DNA from: a virus
Strand: one strand, 5' to 3'
Length of the DNA stretch: 42,755 nucleotides
Virus record (IMG/VR): IMGVR_UViG_3300020734_000006
Coordinates: 1-42,755 of that record
The position numbers were made by a program, and so were the translations under genes. The number at the start of each line of letters is the position of its first letter. Position 1 is the first letter of the stretch. Shown here piece by piece: positions 26,718-39,004 of the stretch. The notes beneath the pieces were generated by a model. It worked only from the letters and a program-made list of their open reading frames with translations, was not told where the DNA came from and searched no databases.

Positions 26718-26991
26718 TTTCTACTCTCTTTAGTAAGTGTAATTCAACAAGGCGTGCATAACCGGCAATATCTCGCCAACTATCCACATGGTCTGGTGTA
26801 ACAGCTAATCTAGATAATTTCATGGCTATCTTAGAAAAATACATTTGATAAACCAATCCCATTTCAAGGCCATAATGATGCTTATAACGGTCTTTTAATA
26901 GCTGAATGATTTGAGCTTCCAATGTAATTCCTTCAAAAAAGTCGCCATAAACTTCACCACGTTCTTTAATGACTTGATCAGTGGTTGTCAT
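26701..26991 (-). CDS. DUF6378-like phage protein
   Basis: The 96-residue protein starts at the ATG of a junction repeat (26989-26991). It contains IKERGEVYGDFFEG and MKLSRLAVTPDHVDSWRDIAGYARLVE, a pattern of small all-alpha phage proteins grouped as DUF6378, whose Asp/Glu helices resemble nucleotide pyrophosphatase folds. No activity is known. A longer start upstream would translate the repeat itself as KKGTREM and is unlikely, since the repeat marks the start codon of the seven other genes. It overlaps the ThyX-like gene by 17 bases. Confidence 0.65.
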   Translation of the reverse strand: MTTTDQVIKERGEVYGDFFEGITLEAQIIQLLKDRYKHHYGLEMGLVYQMYFSKIAMKLSRLAVTPDHVDSWRDIAGYARLVELHLLKRVENAKNP

Positions 26992-27006
26992 TTCTCTTGT
27001 GCCTTT
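26989..27006 (-). repeat. Junction repeat copy 1 (start of DUF6378-like gene)
   Basis: Coding strand AAAGGCACAAGAGAAATG. The ATG is the start of the gene 26701-26991. The 31-residue membrane gene ends one base before the repeat, so this copy is not translated by the upstream gene. Confidence 0.85.
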
Positions 27007-27007
27007 C

Positions 27008-27103
27008 TTAACAATGTTTATTAGCAATAATCATCATAAAAGACTGAAAAATTACAATAATACTTAAAATAGTTATCGTTACTCTGCTCCAAAATGTAGT
27101 CAT
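27008..27103 (-). CDS. 31-residue single-span membrane protein in the junction-repeat array
   Basis: From the ATG of a junction repeat (27101-27103) a frame runs 31 codons to TAA at 27008-27010. It encodes MTTFWSRVT, then the hydrophobic ITILSIIVIFQSFMMIIA, then NKHC, i.e. a short basic start, one membrane helix and a small tail. Its start overlaps the stop of the preceding gene (ATGA) and another repeat begins one base after its stop, which marks it as a cassette of the same array. The function is unknown. The frame is too short to assign by length alone, but the exact fit between two repeats supports it. Confidence 0.6.
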   Translation of the reverse strand: MTTFWSRVTITILSIIVIFQSFMMIIANKHC

Positions 27104-27315
27104 TTCTCTTGTGCCTTTTCTGCAATCCATTTCCAACCAAGCAATTCTTCTGTGTTTTTAATGTGAGTTGGGTTTAATGGCGCATATACCGCAAATCTTG
27201 TTGACCAACCGCCTTCTACGGTAGGTGTAATCTGCCACCATCCAATAGGCTCAGGAGATTTCAAGATTGTGTATTGGCTCATATCTCGGTTGATTGTTAA
27301 ATCGTTACCATTCAT
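27100..27315 (-). CDS. Small hypothetical protein of the junction-repeat array
   Basis: The 71-residue protein starts at a junction repeat (27313-27315) and ends in WIAEKAQEK, where the last codons are the next repeat. It contains EPIGWWQITPTVEGGWSTRF, with an EPIGWW that recalls the EPVAWM of its neighbours. Several Trp and aromatic residues suggest a compact beta-rich fold. The function is not recognised. Stops and starts on both sides overlap as ATGA. Confidence 0.55.
   Translation of the reverse strand: MNGNDLTINRDMSQYTILKSPEPIGWWQITPTVEGGWSTRFAVYAPLNPTHIKNTEELLGWKWIAEKAQEK
27101..27118 (-). repeat. Junction repeat copy 2 (start of 31-residue membrane gene)
   Basis: Identical 18 bases to copy 1. 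It is both the KAQEK tail of the gene 27100-27315 and the start codon of the gene 27008-27103. Confidence 0.85.
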
Positions 27316-27569
27316 TTCTCTTGTGCCTTTTTTAGTATTTCTCTAGCATTATTAAATCCATCAATAAGACCTGTTATATACATATCCATATAACCGCTTT
27401 CTTCAGCATCTTTAACCAATTTATCCAAGTCTTGTTCTGTTAGTGCCTTTGCTGGGTGGGTGTAGAGTGGAATACAAGGCTGTTCAATATCAAAAGATAT
27501 GTTTAATGCTGCACCCAAGCTAGTAAAAAGCACACCATCTACCATCCACGCTACTGGTTCATTGTTCAT
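27312..27569 (-). CDS. EPVAW/PLYTHPA-family small protein, copy B
   Basis: The 85-residue protein starts MNNEPVAWMVDGVLFTSLG and contains CIPLYTHPAKALTEQDLDKLVKDAEESG and a helical end ILKKAQEK. It shares its opening and the PLYTHPAK-LT block with the proteins at 27908-28189 and 37286-37762. EPVAW-PLY proteins occur in many phage early regions with no known function. The N-terminal part is probably beta and the C-terminal part helical. Its start codon is in one junction repeat and its last codons are in the next. Confidence 0.6.
   Translation of the reverse strand: MNNEPVAWMVDGVLFTSLGAALNISFDIEQPCIPLYTHPAKALTEQDLDKLVKDAEESGYMDMYITGLIDGFNNAREILKKAQEK
27313..27330 (-). repeat. Junction repeat copy 3 (start of gene 27100-27315)
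   Basis: Identical 18 bases. It encodes the KAQEK tail of the EPVAW copy B and carries the next start, with ATGA overlap. Confidence 0.85.
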
Positions 27570-27796
27570 TTCTCTTGTGCCTTTTCTTCAGCAATAAAAC
27601 TAACTGGCAGTTCGGTTGGTGGATTTAATACAAAATGCGGAACTGCATAAGGGTTATACAAGTCTTCTTGCGGTCTGGTTAATTCTCTAATTTCATTCAA
27701 TACATCTTCATTTATTGTGCAAGTCCAAACATGGTCTGTTTTATAAAACCGCAAACTAAATTTTCCTATTGGAATTTCTTTGAACGCTATTATCAT
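27566..27796 (-). CDS. Small hypothetical protein of the junction-repeat array
   Basis: The 76-residue protein starts at ATG 27796, in a junction repeat. An upstream in-frame ATG at 27823 would again translate the repeat and is unlikely. It contains IIAFKEIPIGKFSLRFYKTDHVWTC and PHFVLNPPTELPVSFIAEEKAQEK, a beta-rich body and the array's shared tail. No family is recognised. It overlaps the following gene by four bases. Confidence 0.55.
   Translation of the reverse strand: MIIAFKEIPIGKFSLRFYKTDHVWTCTINEDVLNEIRELTRPQEDLYNPYAVPHFVLNPPTELPVSFIAEEKAQEK
27567..27584 (-). repeat. Junction repeat copy 4 (start of EPVAW copy B)
   Basis: Identical 18 bases. It encodes the KAQEK tail of the gene 27566-27796 and carries the next start. 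Confidence 0.85.
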
Positions 27797-27811
27797 TTCT
27801 CTTGTGCCTTT
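27794..27811 (-). repeat. Junction repeat copy 5 (start of gene 27566-27796)
   Basis: Identical 18 bases, following the stop of the 32-residue membrane gene by one base, so it is not translated by that gene. Confidence 0.85.
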
Positions 27812-27812
27812 C

Positions 27813-27911
27813 TCATTTAACACCCCATATCAAATAAGCATTGATAATTCCAATAAAATACATAGCAATAGCCAATAACAATCCTTTGTCTTTGCAATCT
27901 AACTTATTCAT
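27813..27911 (-). CDS. 32-residue single-span membrane protein in the junction-repeat array
   Basis: From ATG 27909-27911 in a junction repeat a frame runs 32 codons to TGA at 27813-27815. It encodes MNKLDCKDK, then GLLLAIAMYFIGIINAYLIW, then GVK: a charged start and a membrane helix. Another repeat begins one base after the stop. The arrangement matches the 31-residue protein at 27008-27103, although the two sequences are not alike. It may act on the host membrane, as many tiny phage early proteins do; this is an inference. Confidence 0.6.
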   Translation of the reverse strand: MNKLDCKDKGLLLAIAMYFIGIINAYLIWGVK

Positions 27912-28189
27912 TTCTCTTGTGCCTTTCTTAGTATTTCTAACACTTCACCACAACACACTTTCACTGCGTTATAGGCTTCTGGCATATTTTCATCAGCACA
28001 CCAATACGCTATCCCCATAATCGCTATACGCACTTGCTCTATTTCCTCATCTGTTAGTGTCTTTGCTGGATGGGTGTAGAGTGGAATAATTGGTTCTTCA
28101 CCTTTTTCTTTAATAATATTTGCAAGATTTTCATCTTTAGTAATTAAATATCCATTTTCTGTCATCCACGCTACTGGTTCATTGTTCAT
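27908..28189 (-). CDS. EPVAW/PLYTHPA-family small protein, copy A
   Basis: The 93-residue protein begins MNNEPVAWMTENGYLITKDENL and has IIPLYTHPAKTLTDEEIEQVRIAIMG, followed by a helical segment with two adjacent cysteines and the ending ILRKAQEK. It is a paralogue of 27312-27569 and of the C-terminal part of 37286-37762. It is the first gene of the array; its start overlaps the HD-phosphatase stop (ATGA) and has no junction repeat, so the repeats begin at its 3' end. Confidence 0.6.
   Translation of the reverse strand: MNNEPVAWMTENGYLITKDENLANIIKEKGEEPIIPLYTHPAKTLTDEEIEQVRIAIMGIAYWCADENMPEAYNAVKVCCGEVLEILRKAQEK
27909..27926 (-). repeat. Junction repeat copy 6 (start of 32-residue membrane gene)
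   Basis: Identical 18 bases. It encodes the KAQEK tail of the EPVAW copy A and carries the next start. Confidence 0.85.
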
Positions 28190-28692
28190 ACTTTGTATGC
28201 CTCCAGTTTATGAGCTAGCACAGCCATGCGCTTTGCACTATTGGTGTATACATCTACCATATAACCAGTATTGCCCATTTTGATTTCATTATCGGCATAT
28301 TGTAGACATTGAAGTGCATCACAATAATGAACCACCAATGCTTCTGGTGTATCATTATGGTACATATCACAGAATTCACGTACCTGTTCTGGAAAGTTTT
28401 CTACTATCTGTGCTTCTGCATCTTTAAGTGCATCGGCAACATGTGGGTAATTCTTTTTGACGAGATGGTTAACATCTGATATTTCCATCTCTGCTAAATC
28501 ATGGCATAAAGCAATCTTTAATGCTATATCAACATCAAATTCATATTCTTTAGACATCATTAAAACACCAAGAGCTACAAAGAAACTATGAGTAGCTACG
28601 GATTCTGGATGAACTACAGGTTTCATAGAGTATCGTTTTGTGTGCTCTAATGAATAACTTCTCATAAAGAAGTCTAGGTCTTTTTCATTCAT
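28186..28692 (-). CDS. HD-domain 5'-deoxynucleotidase, YfbR-like
   Basis: The 168-residue protein starts at ATG 28692, eight bases inside the preceding gene. It has the YfbR layout: RYSMKPVVHPESVATHS with His35, ALCHDLAEME with His64-Asp65, and VHYCDALQCL with Asp125, i.e. the H...HD...D metal site. E. coli YfbR removes phosphate from dNMPs. Here it would recycle or drain deoxynucleotides. The same fold is used by DatZ of phages with diaminopurine DNA, a relation that cannot be decided from sequence alone. A longer start would only add a basic tail encoded within the previous gene. Confidence 0.75.
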   Translation of the reverse strand: MNEKDLDFFMRSYSLEHTKRYSMKPVVHPESVATHSFFVALGVLMMSKEYEFDVDIALKIALCHDLAEMEISDVNHLVKKNYPHVADALKDAEAQIVENFPEQVREFCDMYHNDTPEALVVHYCDALQCLQYADNEIKMGNTGYMVDVYTNSAKRMAVLAHKLEAYKV

Positions 28693-29137
28693 AGTCAATA
28701 GCCTCTTTAGACCAATCCTTACGAGTAAAGCGCTGAGTTTCCAACACATCTTCTAATGCATCACGAAGCTGAGTATATGAAGTGCATACTGATCCAGATG
28801 CAGCTAACATAATATTGAATTTTTGACCTTTTTGTGCCGTTGTCCAAAGATAGATAATCGGAATATTCTTTGCACTACAATAGCCTGCTTCAAAGATTGT
28901 GCCTGTGTCTTTGTCATCAGTAATACAGACCAATAAAGTCGTTTTATCCAATGCAGCCATGTTAGATGCAAAGACTTCTTCAGGGGTTGTAATACCAGGC
29001 ATAAACAAACTTTCATCTTTAGGGCTGAAAAAAGGAATTTGTTTATCTTCTAGAATCTCTTTAACAAACTCTAAACGTCTGATTTGAGTTTCATTAAAAA
29101 ACGGGGCTGCTATATACACATATAAGTTATCCAGCAT
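28685..29137 (-). CDS. Nucleoside 2-deoxyribosyltransferase-like protein
   Basis: The 150-residue protein starts at ATG 29137, with GGAG upstream in the coding strand. It begins MLDNLYVYIAAPFFNETQ and carries IFEAGYC with Glu83 in the place of the catalytic Glu, preceded by DDKDTGT. PFFSPKDES and Asn59 (ASNMAALD) also match the family. Members exchange bases between deoxynucleosides through a covalent glycosyl intermediate. In this operon it probably serves nucleotide salvage or the making of an unusual base. It is followed by the HD 5'-nucleotidase with an eight-base overlap. Confidence 0.75.
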   Translation of the reverse strand: MLDNLYVYIAAPFFNETQIRRLEFVKEILEDKQIPFFSPKDESLFMPGITTPEEVFASNMAALDKTTLLVCITDDKDTGTIFEAGYCSAKNIPIIYLWTTAQKGQKFNIMLAASGSVCTSYTQLRDALEDVLETQRFTRKDWSKEAIDYE

Positions 29138-29327
29138 TGTTTTCTCCAAGTTGTTTTGCTATATTGATTAAAAGATCTTGTGCATCTTTTGGGTTATACA
29201 TCACAACATCGCCATGCTGACTGATATAGTGAAGTTGGCCTGTTTCTTTGGCTTTGTATAGTTCTCGTTGTTGCCATTTTGCATTGGCTTCCATCCATTT
29301 TTGTGCATCTTTATCTGCTTGATTCAT
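29127..29327 (-). CDS. Small hypothetical protein, first gene of the nucleotide operon
   Basis: The 66-residue protein begins MNQADKDAQKWMEANAKWQQRELYKAKE, a charged amphipathic helix, then a short beta-like segment and AQDLLINIAKQLGENNAG. The ATG at 29327 has AAGGA eight bases upstream in the coding strand and lies 30 bases from the predicted -10. It overlaps the deoxyribosyltransferase gene by 11 bases. No function is recognised. Confidence 0.5.
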   Translation of the reverse strand: MNQADKDAQKWMEANAKWQQRELYKAKETGQLHYISQHGDVVMYNPKDAQDLLINIAKQLGENNAG

Positions 29328-29356
29328 GATTTATCCTTTTTAGTTAACAACAAATC

Positions 29357-29388
29357 ATTGTACCATGTGTTTACTTATAAGTAAACAC
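29357..29388 (-). promoter_or_regulatory. Promoter overlapping a perfect 22-bp palindrome
   Basis: On the - strand, TTTACT (complement of 29380-29385) and TACAAT (29357-29362) are separated by 17 bases. A perfect palindrome, arms GTGTTTACTTA and TAAGTAAACAC, occupies 29367-29388, covering the -35 and most of the spacer. It begins right after the stop of the helicase gene. A dimeric regulator bound there would block the promoter. It drives the genes from 29327 to 25553. Confidence 0.65.
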
Positions 29389-30759
29389 TTATTTTTCTTT
29401 TGCATATGCTTTAACTGCATTCATAAGACTTTGTTGCGTCTTATCTTTACCTTCAATTGCTTTAATAATAGCTTCATCAATAGTTTTTCTACCAATAATC
29501 TGGTGAATGATAATGTTATTTCTTTGTCCTTGACGGTAGAGTCGTCTTACAAACTGCTCATAGATTTCTAAGGACCAAGTATTACTAAACCAGATCACAG
29601 CATGACCAGCTCCTTGTAAGTTTAAGCCATGCCCTGCAGATTGTGGATGGGCAAGAAGCACAGGAGTTTTACCTTCATTCCATACATTAATAATCTTAGT
29701 TAGCTTATCACCTGAAACTCCTGATCCAATCACTGGCGCCGATGGAAATGCTTTCTTAAGTCTGTCTAAATCATGCTTAAAATGGTAGCCAATCAAGCAT
29801 GGCTGCCCTGATAATTCTTCTACTATATCAATCACCGCTTCCAGTTTGGCATCGTGTATATGCTGTACTTCGCGCTCTGATCCGTCTAAATAGACTGCCC
29901 CATTAGAAATTTGCTGGCATTTACCAATAGCAACTGCTGCTGTAGATGCAGTAACTTGGCCACTTTCTATATCAAGTAATAGCTTGTCTTCAAGCTCTTT
30001 ATACTTCTTAAATGCTTCAGGCGGAAGATCCACATATACTTTATTGGTGATTAGCTCAGGTAGTTCTAGATAGTCTTCAGCCGACATTCTTAATACTTTA
30101 TCAGCCAATGCTTCATAAATTCGTTCTTCGGCACCTGTTTGTAAAGCCCATGTATAACCGCCATACCCACTAGGATAGAAGTAGTTTGCTCTAAAGTGTG
30201 TTACATATTTACCAAACGTGGCTCCACGGTCAATTACAAGCTGTGGCCCAAATATATCCATTAATCCATTAGATGCTGGAGATCCTGTTAATCCAATTCG
30301 TCTAGGAAAGTGATCTAATAAAGGGCTTAAAGACTTAAATCTTTGTGTACGAGTATTTTTTAAATAGCTTATTTCGTCCACAATAAGCATGTCATAAGGT
30401 AGTTTAACTCCTAACCTTCTAAAGGTATTGGATAACCATGCCAGACCATCAAAGTTAACCACATGAATGGTTGCCTTATCATGGATTTTCTTGTCTTTCT
30501 GAGGGCCATGAAGCACACTGCAAGTAATGTCTTTAAAGTTATCCCATTTTTGTATTTCATCAGGCCAAACTGCATAGCAAGGTCGTAAAGGCGCTATAAC
30601 TAAGACTTTCTTTACTGCATTGGCTTCAATTAATAACTTGATTGTTTCAAGCGTAATTGCGGTTTTTCCTAGCCCTGGGCTTAGCCATAATTGGCCTGAA
30701 CCATTTTCTAGGAGAAACTTAATTGCTTTTGTTTGGTACTCGTGTGGCTTCCAAAGCAT
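29389..30759 (-). CDS. SNF2-type (superfamily 2) DNA helicase
   Basis: The 456-residue protein has the helicase motifs in order: Gln-containing start HEYQTKAIKFL, Walker A SPGLGKTA (27-34), Asp-Glu-Ile-Ser at 128-131 (motif II, DExx), LTGSPA at 157-162 (motif III) and RRLYRQGQ at 405-412 (motif VI). It resembles the compact SNF2-like helicases that phages encode beside a VRR-NUC nuclease. The likely role is DNA remodelling or unwinding during replication or recombination. It overlaps the VRR-NUC gene by 41 bases. Its stop touches the palindromic promoter of the next operon. Confidence 0.85.
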   Translation of the reverse strand: MLWKPHEYQTKAIKFLLENGSGQLWLSPGLGKTAITLETIKLLIEANAVKKVLVIAPLRPCYAVWPDEIQKWDNFKDITCSVLHGPQKDKKIHDKATIHVVNFDGLAWLSNTFRRLGVKLPYDMLIVDEISYLKNTRTQRFKSLSPLLDHFPRRIGLTGSPASNGLMDIFGPQLVIDRGATFGKYVTHFRANYFYPSGYGGYTWALQTGAEERIYEALADKVLRMSAEDYLELPELITNKVYVDLPPEAFKKYKELEDKLLLDIESGQVTASTAAVAIGKCQQISNGAVYLDGSEREVQHIHDAKLEAVIDIVEELSGQPCLIGYHFKHDLDRLKKAFPSAPVIGSGVSGDKLTKIINVWNEGKTPVLLAHPQSAGHGLNLQGAGHAVIWFSNTWSLEIYEQFVRRLYRQGQRNNIIIHQIIGRKTIDEAIIKAIEGKDKTQQSLMNAVKAYAKEK

Positions 30760-31024
30760 TGGTAATTTCCTCTTTTGTTCTTAATACGAGTACGCAATGA
30801 TGATGTAATCGTAATAACATATGTATATGTTCTTGTCTAGCTGATAACTTTCCTGTTAGTGTTTTTAGCTCAATCCATAGCACTTTATTAAACGGCAAAA
30901 CAACAAGACGGTCAGGGTATCCTGTACTGAACTTTAAATGCAGCTTAATTGATGTAGTCTTTAAGCGTTTGCATTCTGCTGAAAAATGTCTTTCCAGATC
31001 TCGTTCAAGTACTTTAGTTACCAT
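30719..31024 (-). CDS. VRR-NUC domain nuclease
   Basis: The 101-residue protein is about the size of a single VRR-NUC domain. GYPDRLVV (Asp38) and IELKTLTGKLSARQ (Glu52, Lys54, Gln64) form the conserved Pro-Asp...Glu-x-Lys...Gln site, and HHHCVLVLRTKEEI ends the fold. This group includes Holliday-junction-type and structure-specific nucleases. It overlaps both neighbours, the helicase and the Cas4-like nuclease, so the three are a unit of DNA processing. Confidence 0.8.
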   Translation of the reverse strand: MVTKVLERDLERHFSAECKRLKTTSIKLHLKFSTGYPDRLVVLPFNKVLWIELKTLTGKLSARQEHIHMLLRLHHHCVLVLRTKEEITNALEATRVPNKSN

Positions 31025-31656
31025 TTACATGGGCCGCCACTTTTCTTACTAAAATTGCAGTAATTACACAAGAATGATGGATTAGGGGCAAAAATCTTAT
31101 CTTTTTCCACATTTTCAAGCCGATGTTTTAACTGGACTTGTAAAGTCGGTAAGTCTACTCTTGTAATTAGTTTGTATTCATCGGTTTTAGCAAGGTCAAG
31201 AAACTCGATAGCAGTTTTGACATATTCAATATGAGGTTTACATGACATAATTAATGCTGCATATACTGATACTTGATCCGAATAATCACGATGCTTACCT
31301 GTTTTAAAGTCAATGATAGTAGCTTCAGGACCATTCTCAATATACAAGTCAATCACACCACGAAACATAGCAGTTGGATCATTGTATAAAACAGGGCTCC
31401 ATGATTTATCGACTGCAATAGTCATTTCAGATGCAGCTTTTAGCTTTAGCCAATTAGATAGTTTATCATCTAAATAAGCAATATCCTCTGATAAGATAGG
31501 CAATCCGCCTTTAAGAATGGCTTCAATCTCTTCATGAATCATTTTGCCTCGATTGGCAGCTTCACCTGATTTATCCTGAAGCTTATCAATACGGACAAAT
31601 TTATATTTACGAGCACATTGCTCATGCATTTTAACTGCGGAGTATGAATGGATCAT
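31018..31656 (-). CDS. Cas4/RecB-like PD-(D/E)XK nuclease with Fe-S cysteines
   Basis: The 212-residue protein has His41 (RGKMIHEEIE), Asp103 (RGVIDLY), Asp116-Phe-Lys118 (IIDFKTGK) and Gln128...Tyr132 (DQVSVYAAL), the motif series of RecB/Cas4-type exonucleases. One cysteine near the N-terminus (Cys14) and three at the end (Cys197, Cys200, Cys210) match the 4Fe-4S arrangement of Cas4 and AddB. It probably trims DNA ends in replication or recombination. There is no cas1, cas2 or CRISPR array nearby, so an adaptation role is not supported. It overlaps its neighbours by a few bases. Confidence 0.8.
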   Translation of the reverse strand: MIHSYSAVKMHEQCARKYKFVRIDKLQDKSGEAANRGKMIHEEIEAILKGGLPILSEDIAYLDDKLSNWLKLKAASEMTIAVDKSWSPVLYNDPTAMFRGVIDLYIENGPEATIIDFKTGKHRDYSDQVSVYAALIMSCKPHIEYVKTAIEFLDLAKTDEYKLITRVDLPTLQVQLKHRLENVEKDKIFAPNPSFLCNYCNFSKKSGGPCKW

Positions 31657-31931
31657 TGTCTTTGACTTGGAATTCGGTTGCGGATTCTTTCGGCTAATTC
31701 ACTAAAGTGCTCTTTATATGGCATGTCTGTATGATTTTCGCCTTCATCATCAACTAATTTGGCGCATGCTTCACGTTCCATTGCAACTGCCATTTTAGAT
31801 GCTTCAATTGCCATAGACATAATTTCAGCTTTAGCCATAACCAAGGCATCATCAAACTCTTTTTGAGTAAATAAAGTACCGCCTGTTCCTTTAGCAAAGA
31901 ACTGTTTTTGAAAATCAGATTGCTCAGCCAT
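31653..31931 (-). CDS. Small phage protein with EREACAKLVDD motif
   Basis: The 92-residue protein starts at ATG 31931, eight bases inside the preceding gene; a start at 31964 would add an unneeded N-terminus. The centre is a long helix (FDDALVMAKAEIMSMAIEASKMAVAMEREACAKLVDD) followed by ELAERIRNRI. The REACA...IRxR ending occurs in many small phage proteins of unknown role. It overlaps the Cas4-like gene by four bases. Confidence 0.55.
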   Translation of the reverse strand: MAEQSDFQKQFFAKGTGGTLFTQKEFDDALVMAKAEIMSMAIEASKMAVAMEREACAKLVDDEGENHTDMPYKEHFSELAERIRNRIPSQRQ

Positions 31932-32433: not shown

Positions 32434-32441
32434 ATTGCTCC

Positions 32442-34262
32442 TTATTTAGTTTCTGCAAAGTTGTTGCCTATTACAGCCTCGGCAATAAAAGGGACATCCA
32501 TTGGAAATGCATTGACCATACTTAATTCTAGTTTTTTAGACTCTTGCTCTTCATACCCTTTTTGACAAGTAATAACAATTTCATCATGCAAAGATAGTAA
32601 AAGCCGTGAATGCGTAGCTACTTTGGCATAATCAATCATAGCTTTCTTTGCCATATCAGCACCAGATCCTTGAATTAATGTATTAAGAGATTTAAATCCG
32701 AATTCCATTAATTTACCATGGATTATCTTTGGCGGTTCGCCTTTTATTAGACGTCCGCCAACTGTCTTAAATGGTATCTTTGCTCTGTATCTAGCTATAA
32801 GATCTTCATTAATTTTAGGCAGACCTGTAGCAACCTCTGTTTTGTAAAGATCCACGAGTTCTTTAGCTTCTTCATACGGAATTCTTAGCATCTCAGATAG
32901 CTTTTTAGGGCCTGCACCATACAAAATACCGAATGATAGAGTCTTTACATAATCACGAGGAATGTCTCTACCCACTTTTTCACTCATTAAGTTTTTACTG
33001 AATGTATGTAGATCAGCTTTAGGGTCTTTAAGGTATTGCTGCTTTAGTTTTCCATCCTCAAAGTAGGCAAACAATCTAAGCTCCTGCGCATTGTAGTCAC
33101 AGGCAATCATGGAATGGCCTTCATCGGGCAGAATGTACTCACGAACCTTAGGTATAATAAGATCACGAATCTCGGAGGGTAGAGGAGTCTTTGGGCCTCG
33201 TGTAGGCATTGTCTGTAGAGTCGGCTTTGATGATAGTCGGCCTGTTCTAGTACCTCCTGCTTCACCTCTCACCGTGTTCCACTCTGTATAAATCCGACCT
33301 GTAGAAGCAGACTGCTCTAACCATGGCTCGATGTATGTGCCTGTCAATTTGACCAACACATCTCGATGCCGTAGAACGGATGATAGCTCAGGATCTGTAA
33401 TCAGATTTGCAAGTGTATCTTTATCTGACAAAGGCGTACCTTTATCACTCGTTGGCCACTTTTTGTTCTTGTCATAACAACCTTTATTTTGAATGATTTG
33501 AACCAGCTGAGCACCAGAATTATAGTTAATATCGTCTGCATTGAAGTATTTATTCAACCAGACCTCACATTGAAAAATATCTGCCTTGGCTTTTTCCAAT
33601 GACTGATTCAGACCATCTCTATCCACTCGGATACCTAACTTAGAGTTTTCCAATAAAACAGGCATTAGCTCAATTTCCCTGAGATAGGCCCGTGGCATAT
33701 GCTGTCTAACAGTTAAGGTAAAGTCCCATAGCTTGGCTGTTAATGCAACGTCGGCCTCTGCATACATTCCTACAAGGTCCGCCGGACCACGGGCAATGTA
33801 AGCTCCAGCGGTCTTAGGTTTTTTGGCAACTGCAGGTATGTGATTGACTAGCCATTCAAAGAGCTGATCACGCTCTTCAGGCTGTATATTAAGCCATTCA
33901 ACACATAGTTCTTTTAATGATAAACTTCTGACATATGGATTGTACAAGAAAGCTAATACCAAGGTATCATGTACCCTTTCTGCAGAAATAAAAGGTAGGT
34001 TAAATTTCTCAGTAATGACTGACATATCAAACATTGCATTATGAAAACAAATAGATCTACCTGATTCCCATATACGAATTAATAGTCTTCTTGCATCTTC
34101 ATAAGTGCAATTATTGTTGCTGTCATGACAAAATGCGTAATATCCAGATTTAAACTGGTTTGTACGATCTAAAACAGCCAAGCCAACGGGTTTAGGCGGA
34201 TACTGTTCCGGTCTTGGCCCGATGGCTTCTGTCTCAAAATCCAAAAAGATTGGATCTGTCAT
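32442..34262 (-). CDS. polA: Family A DNA polymerase with 3'-5' exonuclease domain
   Basis: The 606-residue protein has a 3'-5' exonuclease domain at about 1-185: Exo I Asp8-Phe-Glu10, Exo II around Asn75-Asp79 and Exo III Tyr167...Asp171. The polymerase domain has motif A DYNAQELRL with Asp389, motif B Arg436...Lys440...Phe444-Gly...Tyr448-Gly, and motif C His559-Asp560-Glu561. All catalytic carboxylates are present. Phe444 aligns with E. coli Pol I F762, which in surveys of viral PolA is associated with virulent phages. There is no 5'-3' exonuclease domain. It is the main replicative polymerase. It ends a few bases before the next gene, and one base separates it from the upstream gene. Confidence 0.93.
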   Translation of the reverse strand: MTDPIFLDFETEAIGPRPEQYPPKPVGLAVLDRTNQFKSGYYAFCHDSNNNCTYEDARRLLIRIWESGRSICFHNAMFDMSVITEKFNLPFISAERVHDTLVLAFLYNPYVRSLSLKELCVEWLNIQPEERDQLFEWLVNHIPAVAKKPKTAGAYIARGPADLVGMYAEADVALTAKLWDFTLTVRQHMPRAYLREIELMPVLLENSKLGIRVDRDGLNQSLEKAKADIFQCEVWLNKYFNADDINYNSGAQLVQIIQNKGCYDKNKKWPTSDKGTPLSDKDTLANLITDPELSSVLRHRDVLVKLTGTYIEPWLEQSASTGRIYTEWNTVRGEAGGTRTGRLSSKPTLQTMPTRGPKTPLPSEIRDLIIPKVREYILPDEGHSMIACDYNAQELRLFAYFEDGKLKQQYLKDPKADLHTFSKNLMSEKVGRDIPRDYVKTLSFGILYGAGPKKLSEMLRIPYEEAKELVDLYKTEVATGLPKINEDLIARYRAKIPFKTVGGRLIKGEPPKIIHGKLMEFGFKSLNTLIQGSGADMAKKAMIDYAKVATHSRLLLSLHDEIVITCQKGYEEQESKKLELSMVNAFPMDVPFIAEAVIGNNFAETK

Positions 34263-34263
34263 C

Positions 34264-34998
34264 TTAATACTTTGATGATGTTAATGCAGGCGCTTCTGGT
34301 TCACCTTCTACATCTGGTGAATTGATAGCATTGGCTACTTCTTTCTCACCTCTTGCCAATAAAGCTTTAACAATGTCAATAGACTCAATGGCTTTAACAA
34401 AGGTGAACTGAATCTTAAATTGTGTTTTAGGATCAGGTACCAATGCAATCTTAGTAACAACTCCTGCCAATGGTCGTTTAACTGTTGATGCCACCGTTTG
34501 AACATATGTTGCAAAGCCTTTAACACTAGTTACTGGAATACGAAGAGCTGCCACTTCACTCATATTTACTGCTTCTGGTGTTGCAATAGAATCAGCTGTC
34601 ATTAGGAATAAACGACGCTTTTCACTACAAGCCTTTCCTTTACCGCCATTTGAAGCACTACCCCATTGATTTTTAGGGCATGTTTCACATAGTTCTGATT
34701 GTGGAGTATCCGATAAATGACTTGGTTTTAGTCCTGTTAATGTAGAGCCTAGAGCAAAACATGTAGGAGGTGCATTATTGGTTGGATCATAACGTGATGT
34801 ATAGTACAAACGCTCGATTGGGGATGCCAATACAACGACTTCCAATTCATTCTTTGCAATAGGGTTATCACGATACTTTAGTGTGCCACCGCTGGTTGTA
34901 ATGAATGAAACACCTGCAGAGCTTTTTTCTGCTGCAATACTTTGTTCTGCTAATTTAGCAAGTTCGGATTCAAAAGTTACAATTTCGTTTTTAGCCAT
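34264..34998 (-). CDS. Putative ssDNA-binding protein with cysteine cluster
   Basis: The 244-residue protein has an acidic C-terminal tail (SPDVEGEPEAPALTSSKY), a central beta-rich domain and a cysteine cluster, Cys80, Cys104, Cys107 and Cys124, in PPTCFALG, CETCPKNQWGSA and KACSEKRRL, which could bind zinc. It lies directly upstream of the DNA polymerase and downstream of a small conserved phage protein, as ssDNA-binding proteins do in many such phages. A replication role is probable but is inferred from place and tail. Similar proteins are often annotated only as hypothetical. Confidence 0.6.
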   Translation of the reverse strand: MAKNEIVTFESELAKLAEQSIAAEKSSAGVSFITTSGGTLKYRDNPIAKNELEVVVLASPIERLYYTSRYDPTNNAPPTCFALGSTLTGLKPSHLSDTPQSELCETCPKNQWGSASNGGKGKACSEKRRLFLMTADSIATPEAVNMSEVAALRIPVTSVKGFATYVQTVASTVKRPLAGVVTKIALVPDPKTQFKIQFTFVKAIESIDIVKALLARGEKEVANAINSPDVEGEPEAPALTSSKY

Positions 34999-35007
34999 TT
35001 TAGTTCC

Positions 35008-35382
35008 TTATTTACGTGACTTAGTTAAGTTAATTCCCCATAATTCAGTAGCCGATGAACCGGGGATTTGTTCACCTTGTTCGATTCGATCCTTAAACGC
35101 AGTAGAGCTTAAACGTTTATGGAGTAAATCAAAGCTTTTGGTTTGGGAAACATATTCATAAAAGGATTCCCAATCCGTAATAACGGGTACAGTCTTTTTA
35201 GACATAGTAACAGAATGACCAGCTTCTGATGCAGCCTTGGTTGTACCTGCCTCTGACATGGCATGCATAATATCTGCTTCTAATTGTGCCGCTTGTTTAG
35301 ATAAATCACTATCTTGTAGTGCAAGATCAGCTCTTTGTTGCTTTACTTCTACTAATTGGTTAATTAGCTCTGATAAATTCAT
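35008..35382 (-). CDS. Hypothetical phage replication-region protein
   Basis: The 124-residue protein opens with a coiled-coil helix (LINQLVEVKQQRADLALQDSDLSKQAAQLEADIMHAM), followed by a beta segment and WESFYEYVSQTKSFDLLHKRLSSTAFKDRIEQGEQIPG. The last block, with Asp-Trp and Leu-Leu-x-x-Arg-Leu, recurs in small proteins next to ssDNA-binding genes in tailed phages. The function is unknown. It overlaps the dCMP deaminase gene by four bases. Confidence 0.55.
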   Translation of the reverse strand: MNLSELINQLVEVKQQRADLALQDSDLSKQAAQLEADIMHAMSEAGTTKAASEAGHSVTMSKKTVPVITDWESFYEYVSQTKSFDLLHKRLSSTAFKDRIEQGEQIPGSSATELWGINLTKSRK

Positions 35383-35822
35383 TGGTTTTCCTCATAAAGT
35401 TTTATTTCTACAAATGCTTCTTTAAACATGTCGCTTGCTATTTGAAATGATTTATTCCACCTTTCAGGCCTTTTATTAAAGCTTACATGTCTAGTTATTC
35501 CTGATTGTATCATCATTGCAGCACATTCACTACAAGCTTGCATCGGGTATGTGTACATTGTGCAACCATATAAGTTTTGATGAGCAAAGATAATTGCATT
35601 TCTCTCGGCATGAATTGTCATTGCATACTTTAGTTCACGGTCATGTAAGCGTTCAGGTTTATCATCAACATATACAGGAAAACCATTAAAGCCAACACTA
35701 ACAATATGGTTATTTGGATCCACAATAACCGCACCACATTTGGTTGATGGATCTTTGGACCATGTGGATACCAATTTAGCCATTTCCAAATACCTTAAAT
35801 CCCATTTATTTTTATTAAGCAT
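35379..35822 (-). CDS. Deoxycytidylate (dCMP) deaminase
   Basis: The 147-residue protein has the zinc-deaminase site His71-Ala-Glu73 (TIHAERNAI) and Cys97-Ser-Glu-Cys100 in MQACSECAAMM, though the usual Pro before the first Cys is Ala here. WSKDPSTKCGAVIVDP and GFNGFP are the typical dCMP deaminase substrate loops. It would convert dCMP to dUMP, the substrate of a thymidylate synthase such as the ThyX-like protein at 25785. It overlaps the next gene by eight bases and shares its operon with the replication genes. Confidence 0.85.
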   Translation of the reverse strand: MLNKNKWDLRYLEMAKLVSTWSKDPSTKCGAVIVDPNNHIVSVGFNGFPVYVDDKPERLHDRELKYAMTIHAERNAIIFAHQNLYGCTMYTYPMQACSECAAMMIQSGITRHVSFNKRPERWNKSFQIASDMFKEAFVEIKLYEENQ

Positions 35823-36297
35823 GGTGCCTCATCCAATCAGGTGCATAAGCTTTATCTTTATTCCATTTCATAACCATAATATTTTTCTTATAGCGATAAT
35901 ATTGGCGGTATGCTTGGACCGTATCATTTGTTTTACATTCATCTGGCATGCATTGTGGTGGGTTTTTCCAACCACTAAATGTAAGAGAAGGAGGTGCAAC
36001 TGATAACTCTTTTTTAAGTATGTGTTCTGTTGCATGTGTCTTACCGTAACGTTTTGTGTATTCTTTACACAATGCAATAGCTAGGTCATAGACATAGTTG
36101 TAATGAAGCTTAGATTCTCTAGTCCATACGGCCGATGGATGATTCTTATGTGTTGGTTTATACGAAACTGGATGGCCGTGTTCGTGATGAGCAGTGGCTA
36201 AGAGCTGTGCTGACTCTATAATCATCTTAACCACATGTTTATCACAGTGGAATATAGCAGCCATTTTAGCATTGGAATGCAAAAAGAAAATATTCAT
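35815..36297 (-). CDS. Conserved phage protein with CDKHVVKM motif, first gene of the replication operon
   Basis: The 160-residue protein contains HCDKHVVKMIIESAQLLATAHHEHG, YKPTHKNHPSAVWTRES and EYTKRYGKTHATEHILKK. These conserved blocks, rich in His, occur in one widespread family of phage proteins near replication genes. Some annotations call them pyrimidine-dimer glycosylases, but they do not show the sequence of T4 endonuclease V, so I leave the function open. The ATG at 36297 has AGGAT upstream and follows the promoter at about 36340. Confidence 0.6.
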   Translation of the reverse strand: MNIFFLHSNAKMAAIFHCDKHVVKMIIESAQLLATAHHEHGHPVSYKPTHKNHPSAVWTRESKLHYNYVYDLAIALCKEYTKRYGKTHATEHILKKELSVAPPSLTFSGWKNPPQCMPDECKTNDTVQAYRQYYRYKKNIMVMKWNKDKAYAPDWMRHHA

Positions 36298-36330
36298 TTA
36301 GTATCCTTGTATTTAGTGTTTTGAATTAAG

Positions 36331-36367
36331 TGTTTACATTATACCATACTTTGATAAATAGTAAACA
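36331..36367 (-). promoter_or_regulatory. Promoter flanked by TGTTTAC/GTAAACA inverted repeat
   Basis: On the - strand, TTTACT (complement of 36360-36365) and a perfect TATAAT (36338-36343) are 16 bases apart. The inverted repeat TGTTTAC (36331-36337) and GTAAACA (36361-36367) brackets the -10. The half-site GTTTAC also appears in the palindrome of the promoter near 29370. It would transcribe the ten genes from 36297 to 29389. Confidence 0.65.
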
Positions 36368-36520
36368 TTATTTTTTCCACCATCTTCTAGGTGCAATACG
36401 ACCCCAGTTAATTAGTGTTTTATAAAAATGGTATCGATTAAACTTATCAGTACGAGAAAATCTTCTACGTACTGACATTTTAGTTCTTGATTTACGAGGT
36501 TTAAGTTCACGAAATATCAT
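36368..36520 (-). CDS. 50-residue highly basic protein
   Basis: A frame from ATG 36518-36520 runs to TAA at 36368-36370 and encodes 50 residues, among them MSVRRRFSRTD, a run of Arg and Lys and a closing RRWWKK. The start overlaps the stop of the preceding gene (AAATGA), so it would be translated by coupling. The high positive charge suggests nucleic-acid binding or a host-inhibiting peptide. Its end lies one base before the operator half-site of the next promoter. Confidence 0.55.
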   Translation of the reverse strand: MIFRELKPRKSRTKMSVRRRFSRTDKFNRYHFYKTLINWGRIAPRRWWKK

Positions 36521-36726
36521 TTGATGCGCATGACTTTTGCTTTACGAAGCACTTGTTCGTATTGTTCTTTGGCTGCATCATCTAAATTACGCAAAGGTAA
36601 GTTTTGGAAAAACTTCCATTTGTCTTTGTATTCTTGCAGCTCTGATGGTGGAACCCAACCATACTTTGCACGCCAACGGATTGTAATGTCAGTACCTGCA
36701 GCTGTCCAAATATATGCATTATTCAT
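36517..36726 (-). CDS. Small hypothetical protein
   Basis: The 69-residue protein begins MNNAYIWTAAGTDITIRWRAKYGWVPPSE and continues as a charged helix. The start codon has GGAG nine bases upstream, in the same GGAGAAAACAATG context as the deoxyribosyltransferase gene. It is followed in overlap by the 50-residue basic gene. No family is recognised. Confidence 0.5.
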   Translation of the reverse strand: MNNAYIWTAAGTDITIRWRAKYGWVPPSELQEYKDKWKFFQNLPLRNLDDAAKEQYEQVLRKAKVMRIK

Positions 36727-36735
36727 TGTTTTCTC

Positions 36736-37125
36736 CTATCTACACTGGTTTAACAGCTCTAATGCAATCATGTCTTCAGGGCCTGTCCATCCTTCAGGCT
36801 TAACTGCATCTTGTATATAACCGCGGCTTGTAGTTCCGGGTTCTTTCTTCATATTGGCTTCATGCACAATATTTAGAATTTTAGGTAGGTTAATCCCCAT
36901 ATGATGAGCACAACCCATTGTGACATAGGCCAAATCAGCAATAGCATCAGCAGCATCAACCAAGTTATTTTTTTCATGTGCTTTCATCAATTCACTAAGT
37001 TCTTCCATTAAAAAGCGGGCATAAAAGCTAATATCAACAGGGTCTAAAAGCTGAGCTTTATTAGAAACTGGGAGTTTTAATTTTGTTCTAAACTCTCGGA
37101 CTTTTTGAAATATGTCTTGATTCAT
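36736..37125 (-). CDS. MazG/PRA-PH-like nucleotide pyrophosphohydrolase
   Basis: The 129-residue protein is all-helical and has Glu41-Glu42-x2-Glu45 (FLMEELSELMKAH) and Asp57...Asp60...Asp64 (LVDAADAIADLAYV), the EExxE...ExxD-type metal site of MazG-like enzymes. IVHEANMKKEPG follows as in the phosphoribosyl-ATP pyrophosphohydrolase-like group. Members split (d)NTPs to the monophosphate and pyrophosphate. The start codon lies in a junction repeat (37123-37125). It could clean up or shape the dNTP pool along with the other nucleotide genes. Confidence 0.75.
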   Translation of the reverse strand: MNQDIFQKVREFRTKLKLPVSNKAQLLDPVDISFYARFLMEELSELMKAHEKNNLVDAADAIADLAYVTMGCAHHMGINLPKILNIVHEANMKKEPGTTSRGYIQDAVKPEGWTGPEDMIALELLNQCR

Positions 37126-37298
37126 TTCTCTTGCGCCTTTTCAACCAATGCTTTTGACCAATCAATAGGTTCTCGCTCAACAATTTCCTCATGATGACAA
37201 TGGGTGCATCTATAGATTGTGCAAGTATTACTTCCACCACAAGCACCCATGATTCCATCAAAGTTTTTATTGCAATTTTTACAAGTTATTTGGTGCAT
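37122..37298 (-). CDS. 58-residue zinc-ribbon protein between two junction repeats
   Basis: A frame from ATG 37296-37298, in a junction repeat, to TGA at 37122-37124 encodes 58 residues. CKNC (Cys6, Cys9) and CTHC (Cys31, Cys34) with Cys20 and Cys26 between them form a zinc-ribbon pattern. It ends ALVEKAQEK, the tail encoded by the next repeat, whose copy has GCGC in place of GCAC. Both starts and stops overlap neighbours as expected for the array. The fold suggests DNA or protein binding. Confidence 0.65.
   Translation of the reverse strand: MHQITCKNCNKNFDGIMGACGGSNTCTIYRCTHCHHEEIVEREPIDWSKALVEKAQEK
37123..37140 (-). repeat. Junction repeat copy 7 (start of MazG-like gene)
   Basis: One base differs (GCGC for GCAC). 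The change is synonymous for Ala in the KAQEK tail of the zinc-ribbon gene. It carries the start of the MazG-like gene. Confidence 0.85.
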
Positions 37299-37762
37299 TT
37301 CTCTTGTGCCTTTCTTAGTATTGCATCATGGATTTCTTTTGCCATTTCACGCCAAGACTTTGAAAACCAATCGTGGCGATTGATGATTGCTTCACATTCG
37401 TCATCGGTTAATGGTGTTAGTGTCTTTGCTGGATGGGTGTAGAGTGGAACATAACCTTCTTTTGGGTTTGGAATAATACCGCTTGCCGTTACCCAATAAT
37501 CATGTTCTTCTAAATACTTTCCATACGCTACTGGTTCATTGCTAAAGACTTTTTCAAATTCAGGTATTTCTTTAAACAATAACTCTATTTCAGCTCTCTG
37601 TTTTAAGATAACATCTAAATCAGCCAACCTAGCTAACTTCAATTCTTCTATTTCAGCTTGTTGCTGGCGGAGCATGGCACAGGTTTTAACCATTAAATCT
37701 TCATTAACAAACCAAAGCCTGTCATCGTTTTCCAATACATCAGCTAGTTCATTTGCAGTCAT
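37286..37762 (-). CDS. EPVAY/PLYTHPA-family protein with N-terminal coiled coil, copy C
   Basis: The 158-residue protein starts MTANELADVLENDDRLWFV, has a coiled coil (TCAMLRQQQAEIEELKLARLADLDVILKQRAEIELL, about 28-64) and then NEPVAYGKYLEEHDYW, VPLYTHPAKTLTPLTDDECEAI and ILRKAQEKCTK. The second half is a paralogue of the EPVAW proteins at 27312 and 27908. Here the tail reads through to TAA at 37286, overlapping the next gene by 13 bases. Presumably a fusion or an extended family form. The function is unknown. Confidence 0.6.
   Translation of the reverse strand: MTANELADVLENDDRLWFVNEDLMVKTCAMLRQQQAEIEELKLARLADLDVILKQRAEIELLFKEIPEFEKVFSNEPVAYGKYLEEHDYWVTASGIIPNPKEGYVPLYTHPAKTLTPLTDDECEAIINRHDWFSKSWREMAKEIHDAILRKAQEKCTK
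37296..37313 (-). repeat. Junction repeat copy 8 (start of zinc-ribbon gene)
   Basis: Identical 18 bases. It encodes KAQEK of the EPVAY gene, which reads on for three residues, and carries the start of the zinc-ribbon gene. Confidence 0.85.
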
Positions 37763-37983
37763 TTTAGCTCCTTTAACAGGTCATCCTGTATTGGCTTTGT
37801 ATTATTGGCCACATCATGCTTATGTACAATGCTAAGTGAGATCATGAATGCATGCCTCCATGCCTCATCCCATATTGCTTTCGGGTCTAATAAAAGTTCT
37901 TCGGCTTTTGCAGTTTTAAGTAGCCTTTCCCAATCCTCATAAGCAATTTCCCATTTTTGCTTATTGTACAAAATAACACTCAT
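37759..37983 (-). CDS. Small hypothetical protein
   Basis: The 74-residue protein is helical and acidic in the middle (IAYEDWERLLKTAKAEELLLDPKAIWDEAWRHAFMISLSIV). It overlaps the preceding gene at its start (TAATG-type) and the EPVAY gene by four bases at its end. No function is recognised. Confidence 0.5.
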   Translation of the reverse strand: MSVILYNKQKWEIAYEDWERLLKTAKAEELLLDPKAIWDEAWRHAFMISLSIVHKHDVANNTKPIQDDLLKELK

Positions 37984-38989: not shown

Positions 38990-39004
38990 TCTGTTTCCTT
39001 TCAT

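Follow-up and report, generated by a model that had tools for sequence, protein, structure and literature searches.

Small genes and pieces of genes appear to be swapped at fixed DNA seams, and phages with different cores appear to share a common pool of such parts. The seams quite probably act as short homology hooks for recombination, and one of them, the tail seam, would also carry a ribosome-binding site and a start codon. Comparison of related assembled contigs shows that their homology breaks at seams more than elsewhere, and that the segments between seams and the genes behind the tail seam occur in many combinations. The analysis started from the window, that is, the whole stretch of 42,755 nucleotides of viral DNA.

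An 18-bp repeat at the starts of small genes

An earlier note had reported an 18-bp repeat, AAAGGCACAAGAGAAATG, in seven exact copies and one with a single change, with six copies in one run (26989-27926) and two further off (37123 and 37296). A scan of the window at up to 3 mismatches returned 8 matches, all on the - strand and at identical positions, compared with a mean of 0.11 and a maximum of 1 in 100 shuffled windows. All eight copies lie in the - strand part of the window, alongside the replication genes, and the ATG of each is the start codon of a small ORF, as had been claimed. The ORFs opened at 26989, 27101, 27313, 27567, 27794 and 27909 have 96, 31, 71, 85, 76 and 32 amino acids (aa), respectively, and those opened at 37296 and 37123 have 58 and 129 aa. 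Also in agreement with the note, six copies sit within the final codons of the upstream gene (..KAQEK), and the other two lie one base past a stop codon (TGA-G at 27794, TAA-G at 26989). At 37296 the next gene begins with ATGC and not ATGA, hence the upstream gene lacks this TGA and continues to KAQEKCTK. The copies, with breakpoints relative to the sister phage G036 (see below), are:

27909-27926, - strand, 18-bp repeat: last codons of EPVAW gene A and start of 32-aa gene
27794-27811, - strand, 18-bp repeat: one base after TGA of 32-aa gene; start of 76-aa gene
27567-27584, - strand, 18-bp repeat: end of 76-aa gene (..EEKAQEK) and start of EPVAW gene B
27313-27330, - strand, 18-bp repeat: end of EPVAW gene B and start of 71-aa gene
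27101-27118, - strand, 18-bp repeat: end of 71-aa gene and start of 31-aa gene
26989-27006, - strand, 18-bp repeat: one base after TAA of 31-aa gene; start of DUF6378 gene; G036 breakpoint
37296-37313, - strand, 18-bp repeat: near end of MTANELAD/EPVAY gene (which continues to CTK) and start of 58-aa gene
37123-37140, - strand, 18-bp repeat with one change: end of 58-aa gene and start of MazG-like gene; G036 breakpoint

The genes that they connect are:

27908-28189, - strand, EPVAW mosaic gene A, 93 aa
27813-27911, - strand, 32-aa cassette gene
27566-27796, - strand, 76-aa cassette gene (MIIAFKE..)
27312-27569, - strand, EPVAW mosaic gene B, 85 aa
27100-27315, - strand, 71-aa cassette gene (MNGNDLTI..)
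27008-27103, - strand, 31-aa cassette gene
26701-26991, - strand, DUF6378 gene, 96 aa; common to G036, where the upstream gene differs
37286-37762, - strand, mosaic gene with extra N-module (MTANELADVLE..LRQQQAEIE) ahead of EPVAY
37122-37298, - strand, 58-aa cassette gene; G036 has a 67-aa gene here
36736-37125, - strand, MazG-like gene (PRA-PH); common to G036, where the upstream gene differs

The description of these genes as mostly unrelated needs qualifying, as those at 27908-28189, 27312-27569 and 37286-37762 form one mosaic family, in which the repeat closes a longer conserved tail; for most copies, the note was right that duplication alone does not account for them. No recognised protein family was found for the mosaic small proteins, and an AlphaFold2 model of EPVAW gene B predicts an N-terminal part containing strands and a helical hairpin.

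Head, middle and tail seams

The repeat goes beyond a start signal. It forms the 3' boundary of a longer tail seam (FARAILRKAQEK*, consensus TTTGCTAGAGCAATACTAAGAAAGGCACAAGAGAAATGA) that overlaps the next ATG. There are at least three such DNA seams, the head (MNNEPVAW), the middle (IPLYTHPAKTLTDEEI) and the tail, which are largely fixed even at synonymous sites. The reading given in the earlier note was supported in part; it had missed the larger set of seams, some of them intragenic, to which the 18-mer belongs as one edge. In the window, they were located as follows:

28163-28189, - strand, head seam ATGAACAATGAACCAGTAGCGTGGATG (MNNEPVAWM), gene A; G036 breakpoint at 28166
28040-28087, - strand, middle seam (IPLYTHPAKTLTDEEI), gene A
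27908-27940, - strand, tail seam, gene A (LEILRKAQEK* and overlapping ATG)
27543-27569, - strand, head seam, gene B
27438-27473, - strand, middle seam, gene B; variant, diverging past CTAACA
37415-37447, - strand, middle seam in the 37286-37762 gene; G036 alignment ends at the 3' end of the seam

Considering only loci that had not been fetched by the 18-mer, KAQEK is spelled AAGGCACAAGAGAAATGA in 25/27 loci from a protein scan, 10/14 from a middle-seam scan and 3/5 from a head-seam scan, and IL is spelled ATACTA in 42/47, 22/23 and 10/10, respectively. The expectation from codon use is 0.013 for the KAQEK spelling and 4.8e-9 for the middle seam. The downstream edge of the tail seam is sharp and its upstream edge ragged. 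Within the middle seam, two markers are linked in 115 cases and unlinked in 5 (57 other variants were set aside); as they are mostly linked, few crossovers have occurred between them.

Probable exchange at seams

One comparison is with the sister phage G036, in which the blocks flanking both loci are 94-98.6% identical to the window, compared with 55% identity at capsid fourfold sites. In the early region the two phages differ by two replacements, all four ends of which are at seams, although the second locus has an end at the middle seam under the wider seam pattern and becomes an event with one seam end under the narrower one. The first replacement sets six genes of the window against one mosaic gene, and the second comprises a different second segment and a different small gene; sister phages thus differ in gene content between repeats, with the ends at repeats. 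Across the whole comparison, 4/10 alignment ends are at seams, and two early insertions in G036, near window positions 31660 and 31935, are both away from them.

Among loci gathered via seams, which are not independent, breakpoint density is 6.57 per kb in seam zones and 0.60 elsewhere (11-fold). Of 159 unique replacement or indel events, 8 have both ends at seams, 21 one end and 130 neither, where a random point falls at a seam in 1.8%. Other gene starts are also enriched as breakpoints (28.7% against 10.1%), and together with the 130 events off seams this indicates that general phage mosaicism contributes. In three contig pairs a stretch between two seam copies has been gained or lost: one gene in L168/L176 (a close relative of the 71-aa gene, missing from L168), one in L127/L246 (a look-alike of the 76-aa gene, MTAFKEF.., missing from L127) and two in L081/L089. 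The overlaps at these events are 22-26 nt, and in all three pairs the longer form has a variant as its first repeat copy (1, 1 and 2 changes).

The same parts recur in many arrangements. Among 177 complete mosaic genes, 93 first-segment and 117 second-segment families form 160 combinations, and all families with at least two distinct proteins have at least two partners (32/32 first-segment, 27/27 second-segment). First segments common to genes with different second segments (173 pairs) have a median nucleotide identity of 93% (60-100%). Beyond the mosaic genes, 342 distinct exact copies of the 18-mer precede 299 distinct gene starts, which, with the seam-ended swaps in G036, supports the role in cassette exchange that had been suggested before. 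Going by their IMG numbers, the phages of this pool would be mostly from freshwater samples. Among 50 carriers, the polymerase gene of the window is not shared by 46 and its capsid gene not by 30. Six phages with a common capsid each have the exact 18-mer, although identity at the fourfold sites of that capsid is 40-60%; the capsid comparison may, however, overstate genome divergence.

Proposed mechanism

We propose that small-gene cassettes, interchangeable within a large phage pool, are joined and recombine at the tail seam. Exchange would be homologous, of the single-strand-annealing type, over ~20-50 shared bases, and would be carried out by phage- or host-encoded enzymes other than a site-specific recombinase. 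An ERF annealing protein was found in 14/50 carriers and YqaJ over the cut-off in 4/50, while RecT over the cut-off was found in 0/50; in the window, no annealing protein was recognised, only a PD-(D/E)XK nuclease. The tail seam may further serve as a portable translation adaptor: AAAGG stands 10 nt before the ATG, and two of the three reading frames close the upstream gene, either by the TAA ahead of GAAAGG or by the TGA in ATGA. A swapped-in gene would in this way be translated and its upstream neighbour terminated. The form of the seam would be kept partly because of its use as an adaptor, and recombination between identical seams would in turn maintain their identity.

More tentatively, and with slightly less than an even chance of being right, the seams could amount to a decentralised grammar of gene assembly, in which a few DNA seams (MNANEL/LRQQQAEIEALK, EPVAW, YTHPAKTLTDEEI and ILRKAQEK-ATG) let phages with different cores build early proteins and operons combinatorially. 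Such a system would be integron-like without an integrase, exact seam homology being both the site of recombination and what recombination selects for. Each variable segment would then be a loop that can be exchanged on a constant scaffold and is directed at host or defence targets that change.

Alternative explanations

The alternative that survives best, although we consider it unlikely, is joint control of a set of early genes through recognition of the stretch between the Shine-Dalgarno sequence and the ATG (CACAAGAGAA) by a protein or RNA of the phage or its host; copies would then persist through regulation, with shuffling being secondary. A start codon does follow AAAGG within 6-18 nt in 456/476 contexts (at 10 nt in 402), the downstream edge is sharp, and among 93 copies lacking the full tail, each of the TAAG bases before AAAGG is still kept in 73-83%. 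The repeat also resembles the start-associated sequences of cluster K and EF phages. The translation-control or RNA-binding role raised in the earlier note is favoured by six small families (MNGNDLTI, DUF6378, MIYKTFEE, MKYK.FDQ, MT[FL]VKW and MNQDIF; loci L132-L365), in which the repeat or a near copy is present at 18/18 starts, yet 125/160 EPVAW starts have neither, and the same holds for MNANELAD (20/44), MTTFTT (29/37) and MTFLVANIPP (3/5). MSFTI starts lack both in 12/12 cases, this being a short pattern that may catch other genes. Moreover, the middle seam is as fixed at synonymous sites but lies inside genes, the spacer tolerates changes and indels (spacings of 6, 7, 8, 9 and 13), anti-SD pairing of the repeat is ordinary, being no stronger than at other starts, and three copies examined have no fold.

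It is considerably less probable that the repeat reflects ordinary descent, as the end of an EPVAW..KAQEK family that was duplicated and spread together with adjoining gene starts. In 260/476 contexts the upstream frame has the ending of the family tail, in 161 more it continues in the KAQEK frame, and 3/8 window copies end family genes. However, 37 contexts follow another gene that stops just before or at the repeat, segments adjoining a seam are wholly different while the seam retains rare codons, and the breakpoints between sister phages lie at seams.

A site-specific, integron-like system, with a recombinase that recognises the repeat as its site for inserting or excising cassettes, would fit with mostly one small gene per repeat and with the presence or absence of cassettes that have a repeat at both ends, but is very improbable. 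Tyrosine recombinase (PF00589) was found in 0/50 carrier records (controls 14/14 positive) and resolvase in 0/50 (controls 10/14 positive), where the records may be fragments; by inspection the three seams have no obvious common core; and the ragged upstream edge of the repeat is not that of a fixed site. A search for a stable, attC-like fold under RNA parameters found none in the same three copies.

That short-read assemblers fused unrelated contigs at a common 40-mer is scarcely credible, even though the data are all environmental assemblies and the seams are repeats. The six array junctions of the window recur exactly, with 60 nt to either side, under 4 or 5 IMG metagenome numbers, while the junction ahead of DUF6378 in G036 and the L168/L171 and L174/L176 junctions each occur under two. 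The divergence of the first segments given above is not expected of fresh chimeras, and the public record MW202753.1, itself an environmental genome but from another survey, has the same build.

Comparison with known systems

Start-associated sequences (SAS) have been described in cluster K mycobacteriophages (PMC3203893) and cluster EF Microbacterium phages (PMC7302621), with a 13-bp consensus of GGGATAGGAGCCC or GGGAAAGGACCCC. In the portions of these papers drawn on here, the cluster K SAS contains AGGAG and is found 3-7 bp upstream of the start, in most cases behind gaps >50 bp; it occurs in the non-structural half, mostly in one orientation (PMC3203893), and about half of the SAS are accompanied by 17-bp inverted repeats (ESAS). 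The earlier note had named SAS as a precedent of different sequence, which is borne out, as AAAGGCACAAGAGAAATG is not the SAS consensus given there. As far as these portions go, both kinds of repeat are short, asymmetric and nearly invariant, and both occupy the position of the ribosome-binding site in front of many different genes; the non-structural half is their common location (8/8 in the window). In contrast to SAS, the repeat spans the ATG, usually overlaps the upstream coding end (6/8, with 2 one base past the stop, rather than after gaps >50 bp) and is linked to intragenic seams. The same portions of PMC3203893 and PMC7302621 describe no exchange at SAS. Mosaic phage proteins built by fragment shuffling (PMC10684548) likewise consist of exchangeable fragments; those treated in the part of that paper used here have assigned functions, whereas the present proteins are small, of no recognised family and divided by seams conserved in DNA.

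As in generic homology-driven module exchange, breakpoints lie at short shared sequences. In lambdoid phages, boundary or linker sequences are short conserved crossover sites at gene junctions, each generally tied to particular junctions. Here, by contrast, one sequence is re-used at hundreds of junctions. The old idea of phage recombination at shared linkers becomes testable in one system, in which the seams are defined, junctions number in the hundreds, sister genomes are distinguished by swaps at the seams, and contigs that have a particular cassette can be set against contigs that lack it. The analysis also brings to light a large family of early proteins of combinatorial build, as yet unnamed, which may be of use for learning what fast-changing phage genes do and how small genes spread between phages.

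The promoter-early stem-loop (PeSL) elements of T4-like phages are reportedly mobile regulatory cassettes, said to go back to work by Arbiol in 2010 and Comeau in 2014. PeSL, which is cited in PMC4503421, is reported to recur as a regulatory element between small genes and to promote the shuffling of genes among related phages, and the present repeat is similarly tied to such shuffling, here by comparison only. Unlike PeSL, with its promoter and stem-loop, it consists of a translation start and a coding tail and is unstructured in the three copies examined, and the seams also split genes internally. Window positions 25500-42755 have no excess of promoter-like sites (50, compared with 60.8 in shuffles) or terminator-like sites (12, compared with 11.6). 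One terminator-like site (37292-37310) overlaps a repeat on the opposite strand.

The repeat at the starts of small genes

The 18-bp repeat AAAGGCACAAGAGAAATG is found in the window (42,755 bases) as seven exact copies and an eighth with one change, every one of them on the - strand, and shuffled controls (n = 100) gave at most one match at equal tolerance. The ATG of a small gene forms the 3' end of every copy (8/8). Six copies also code for the KAQEK end of the upstream gene, whose frame is closed in five cases by the TGA of ATGA, and the other two copies lie one base after a stop codon. Copy number, strand, positions, start codons and both types of upstream context had been described in this way in the earlier note, and each was confirmed. 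At the copy at 37296 the next gene opens with ATGC, which leaves the upstream gene without its stop and adds three residues (KAQEKCTK), an extension that would fit a downstream gene attached at the ATG whatever the upstream frame. Repeats of another kind lie within a + strand ORF (8495-11131), where internal repeats at 9106-10494 have sub-repeats that are 70-88% alike.

Seams of a mosaic gene family

The features used below are:
27908-28189, - strand, gene A, EPVAW mosaic gene of 93 aa
27312-27569, - strand, gene B, EPVAW mosaic gene of 85 aa
37123-37140, - strand, copy of the 18-bp repeat

A protein scan with gene A yielded 436 relatives. The 80 best were retained; these, and an alignment of 53 members, have a mosaic layout of MNNEPVAW, a variable part, IPLYTHPAKTLTDEEI, a second variable part and FARAILRKAQEK followed by a stop. 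The constant parts are largely invariant at the DNA level too, and are referred to here as the head, middle and tail seams, the 18-mer being the 3' edge of the tail seam (ILRKAQEK, stop and overlapping ATG). At loci fetched otherwise than by the 18-mer, the KAQEK codons read AAGGCACAAGAGAAATGA in 25/27 genes from the protein scan, 10/14 from a middle-seam scan and 3/5 from a head-seam scan, and IL is spelled ATACTA in 42/47, 22/23 and 10/10, respectively. Among genes from the 18-mer scan, 11/13 with the middle-seam peptide have its full spelling and 18/27 have that of the head seam. From codon frequencies in the variable parts, these spellings would be expected with a probability of 0.013 for KAQEK and 4.8e-9 for the middle seam, which fixes a leucine as CTC (1% usage elsewhere). 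As the middle seam does not lie at a start, translation initiation alone cannot account for seam conservation.

Grouped at 60% identity by single linkage, the variable parts of 177 complete mosaic genes form 93 first-part and 117 second-part families in 160 combinations. At least two partners were found for every family with at least two distinct proteins (32/32 first-part, 27/27 second-part), and the second part is shared in 40/213 gene pairs with a common first part, versus 194/15,576 pairs overall. Chao1 puts the pool at about 205 first and 295-340 second parts, rough values from a non-random sample. Within gene B, a middle-seam variant, AAAGGCACTAACAGA (27438-27473), partly resembles the tail AAAGGCACAAGAGAA (27313-27330), possibly by chance. 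One relative that uses other codons and ends in ARAIERAHGIGE (locus L181) is a possible outgroup of the family.

A gene junction across metagenomes

Scanning IMG/VR with the 18-mer returned at least 120 stretches; among the matches listed and the window, 181 distinct copies (40 bases per side) are followed by 164 different 13-residue gene starts. The search for the 18-mer beside different small genes, as proposed in the earlier note, gave 342 distinct exact copies before 299 distinct complete gene starts in the fetched loci (L008-L365) and the window, where 225 non-mosaic starts of at least 45 aa make up 160 groups by a crude 3-mer rule. In 476 distinct contexts anchored on AAAGGCACAA, the start codon lies 10 nt past AAAGG (which is distinct from the stretch CACAAGAGAA of the repeat) in 402 and 6-18 nt past it in 54 more, with no start codon found in 20. 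On the upstream side, 260 of these contexts have an ILRKAQ-like tail end, 161 are other frames that remain open over 22 codons or more into KAQ, 37 come after a gene whose stop lies just before the repeat or at it, and 18 fit none of these. The downstream edge is sharp, as A follows the ATG in 97% and no position beyond exceeds 59%; the upstream edge is ragged, with a contiguous match to the tail consensus of 0-23 nt. At about 5187 in locus L071 the head seam is fused straight to the 18-mer (..gaaccagtagcgtgAAAGGCACAAG..), as if the inter-seam stretch had been deleted.

Replacement, gain and loss between seams

In the blocks around two loci, the sister phage G036 (IMGVR 3300025598_000056) has 94.3, 94.2, 97.5 and 98.6% identity with the window, and the gene-content comparison suggested in the earlier note revealed differences at both, with the replacements ending at seams. 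At locus 1 the shared blocks reach 28166, taking in the head seam, and 27010, taking in the tail seam; in between, the window has six genes and G036 one 85-aa mosaic gene. At locus 2 they reach 37415, taking in the middle seam, and 37143, taking in the repeat at 37123-37140; the intervening stretch has a different second variable part and a different next gene (58 aa in the window, 67 aa in G036). With a narrower middle-seam pattern this event has one seam end only. Altogether, 4/10 window/G036 alignment ends fall at seams, seam zones being 0.7% of the six genomes compared. Two early-region insertions of small genes in G036 (34750-35206 and 35484-35880; window ~31660 and ~31935) lie away from seams, and further differences are found in the structural half. 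Exact matches to each of the window's six junctions occur under 4 or 5 IMG metagenome numbers; the G036 junction before DUF6378 occurs under two.

The larger contig set (L008-L333 minus four bin contigs, with the window and G036 added) was gathered through seams, and its loci are not independent. In it, alignment ends have a density of 6.57 per kb in seam zones versus 0.60 elsewhere, and of the 1,375 clustered ends 15.8% lie in such zones, versus 2.2% of random points; other gene starts are more weakly enriched (28.7% versus 10.1%, within 20 nt). Among 159 unique events (replacements or indels with homology on both flanks), scored with the narrower pattern, 8 have both ends at seams, 21 have one and 130 have none, and 1.8% of random points are at a seam. 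Three contig pairs differ by the presence or absence of what lies between two copies of the repeat: a 71-aa MNGNDLTI gene related to one in the window (L176 present, L168 absent), a 60-aa gene that resembles the 76-aa gene of the window (L246, L127) and two genes (L089, L081). The first repeat copy in each longer form is a variant, with 1, 1 and 2 changes, respectively. For the first pair, a junction of the long form (L174, L176) and one of the short form (L168, L171) each occur in two metagenomes.

Carriers of the repeat

Fifty carrier records were picked by us from those fetched, long contigs being favoured, and include the window's own lineage (G036-G038). The exact 18-mer is present in 49/50 and a reversed control in 0/50; a single record, G009, has copies on both strands. 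As the records may be fragments, matches to the window's DNA polymerase in 4/50 (two at 100%, two at 25-27%) and to its capsid protein in 20/50 (100, 100, 96, 96, 92, 92, 91 and 69%, the rest 29-43%) are to be read with that in mind. In six phages whose shared capsid protein has 91-96% amino acid identity, identity at the capsid fourfold sites is 40-60%, and all have the exact 18-mer. The window and G036 are 55% identical at these sites versus 94-98.6% in the early blocks, hence divergence may look greater in the capsid than it is in the genome. When the four capsid-sharing phages added for the fourfold-site comparison were compared over whole records, little of their DNA aligned and no alignment end fell at a seam. 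It seems that the repeat moves, or is retained, independently of the surrounding genome.

No tRNA was found in the window, and the 20-mer occurs on four contigs (L128-L131) binned with unrelated phyla (Bacteroidetes, a cyanobacterium, a betaproteobacterium and Nitrosotalea), hence no host is named. The ORF lists of L130 and L129 look like phage DNA, which makes the bins no guide to the host.

Recombination junction or control site

On these sequence comparisons, the seams are probably recombination junctions between interchangeable small-gene cassettes. They would provide short stretches of homology for DNA exchange, and the tail seam may double as an adaptor that closes the upstream gene and opens the next one. 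Annealing-type recombination enzymes may work on homologies of 20-50 bp. ERF was matched in 14/50 carriers and YqaJ, above the cut-off, in 4/50, which counts for annealing-type recombination; RecT was matched in 0/50. The window has a PD-(D/E)XK nuclease, and no annealing protein was recognised in it.

It is rather unlikely, on mixed evidence, that the repeat is instead kept with its genes as a site where a protein or RNA controls a set of early genes. The shared translation-control or RNA-binding role raised in the earlier note agrees with six small families, all 18 starts of which have the repeat or a near copy (loci L132-L365), whereas in the same loci neither the repeat nor a near copy is present at 125/160 EPVAW, 20/44 MNANELAD, 29/37 MTTFTT, 3/5 MTFLVANIPP and 12/12 MSFTI starts. 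Moreover, three repeat copies show no fold, an excess of promoters or terminators was not found, and Shine-Dalgarno pairing at seam starts is ordinary. For 8 seam starts and 25 other starts hand-picked from the ORF list, mean pairing is -3.3 versus -4.7 kcal/mol with the E. coli tail and -6.1 versus -5.3 kcal/mol with a CCUUUCU tail, both taken as anti-Shine-Dalgarno tails; a strong Shine-Dalgarno was rejected as an explanation. A site-specific recombinase acting at the repeat is very improbable, since PF00589 and PF00239 were found in 0/50 carriers (possibly fragments) with positive controls.

Encoded proteins and known systems

The EPVAW protein had no tblastn match in 50,697 phage records at E 0.01, nor had the L181 protein in phage records at E 0.001. 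Pfam and PHROGs gave nothing convincing (weak matches in 1/53 members per family), and matches to solved structures (calmodulins, RNA polymerase subunits; best E 0.075) were judged to be chance. The AlphaFold2 model of gene B (mean pLDDT 81.5, pTM 0.55) predicts strands at both the head and the middle seam, together with a helical hairpin in which the tail forms the second helix; it has no PDB or BFVD fold match at E <= 0.001 (best BFVD 0.014). One may guess that the variable parts are exchangeable surfaces.

The closest known systems are SAS, PeSL cassettes and lambdoid boundary sequences. The repeat shares start association with SAS but not its defining sequence, and shuffling with PeSL cassettes but not their defining parts; lambdoid boundary sequences are among the nearest comparisons. 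Titles and abstract openings of the papers listed by literature searches showed no description of this repeat.

The 39-nt tail seam had no plasmid match; in phage records it matched MW202753.1 convincingly and two others weakly and in part (E 0.6), and the middle seam matched MW202753.1 in part and two Synechococcus phages weakly. MW202753.1, a public environmental record (Manatee Spring), has the same build as the window's family: MNASELAD..LRQQQAEL..KTLTDEEI..ILRKAQEK and a stop, then MNANELAD.., then MNNEPVAW.., with an antirestriction gene and an exonuclease gene lying at opposite ends. Its gene carrying the seam is annotated as hypothetical. At 2700-3230 this record also holds a further probable seam, CTACGCCAGCAACAAGCTGAA.. 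(LRQQQAEIEALK), which recurs in MNANELAD modules.
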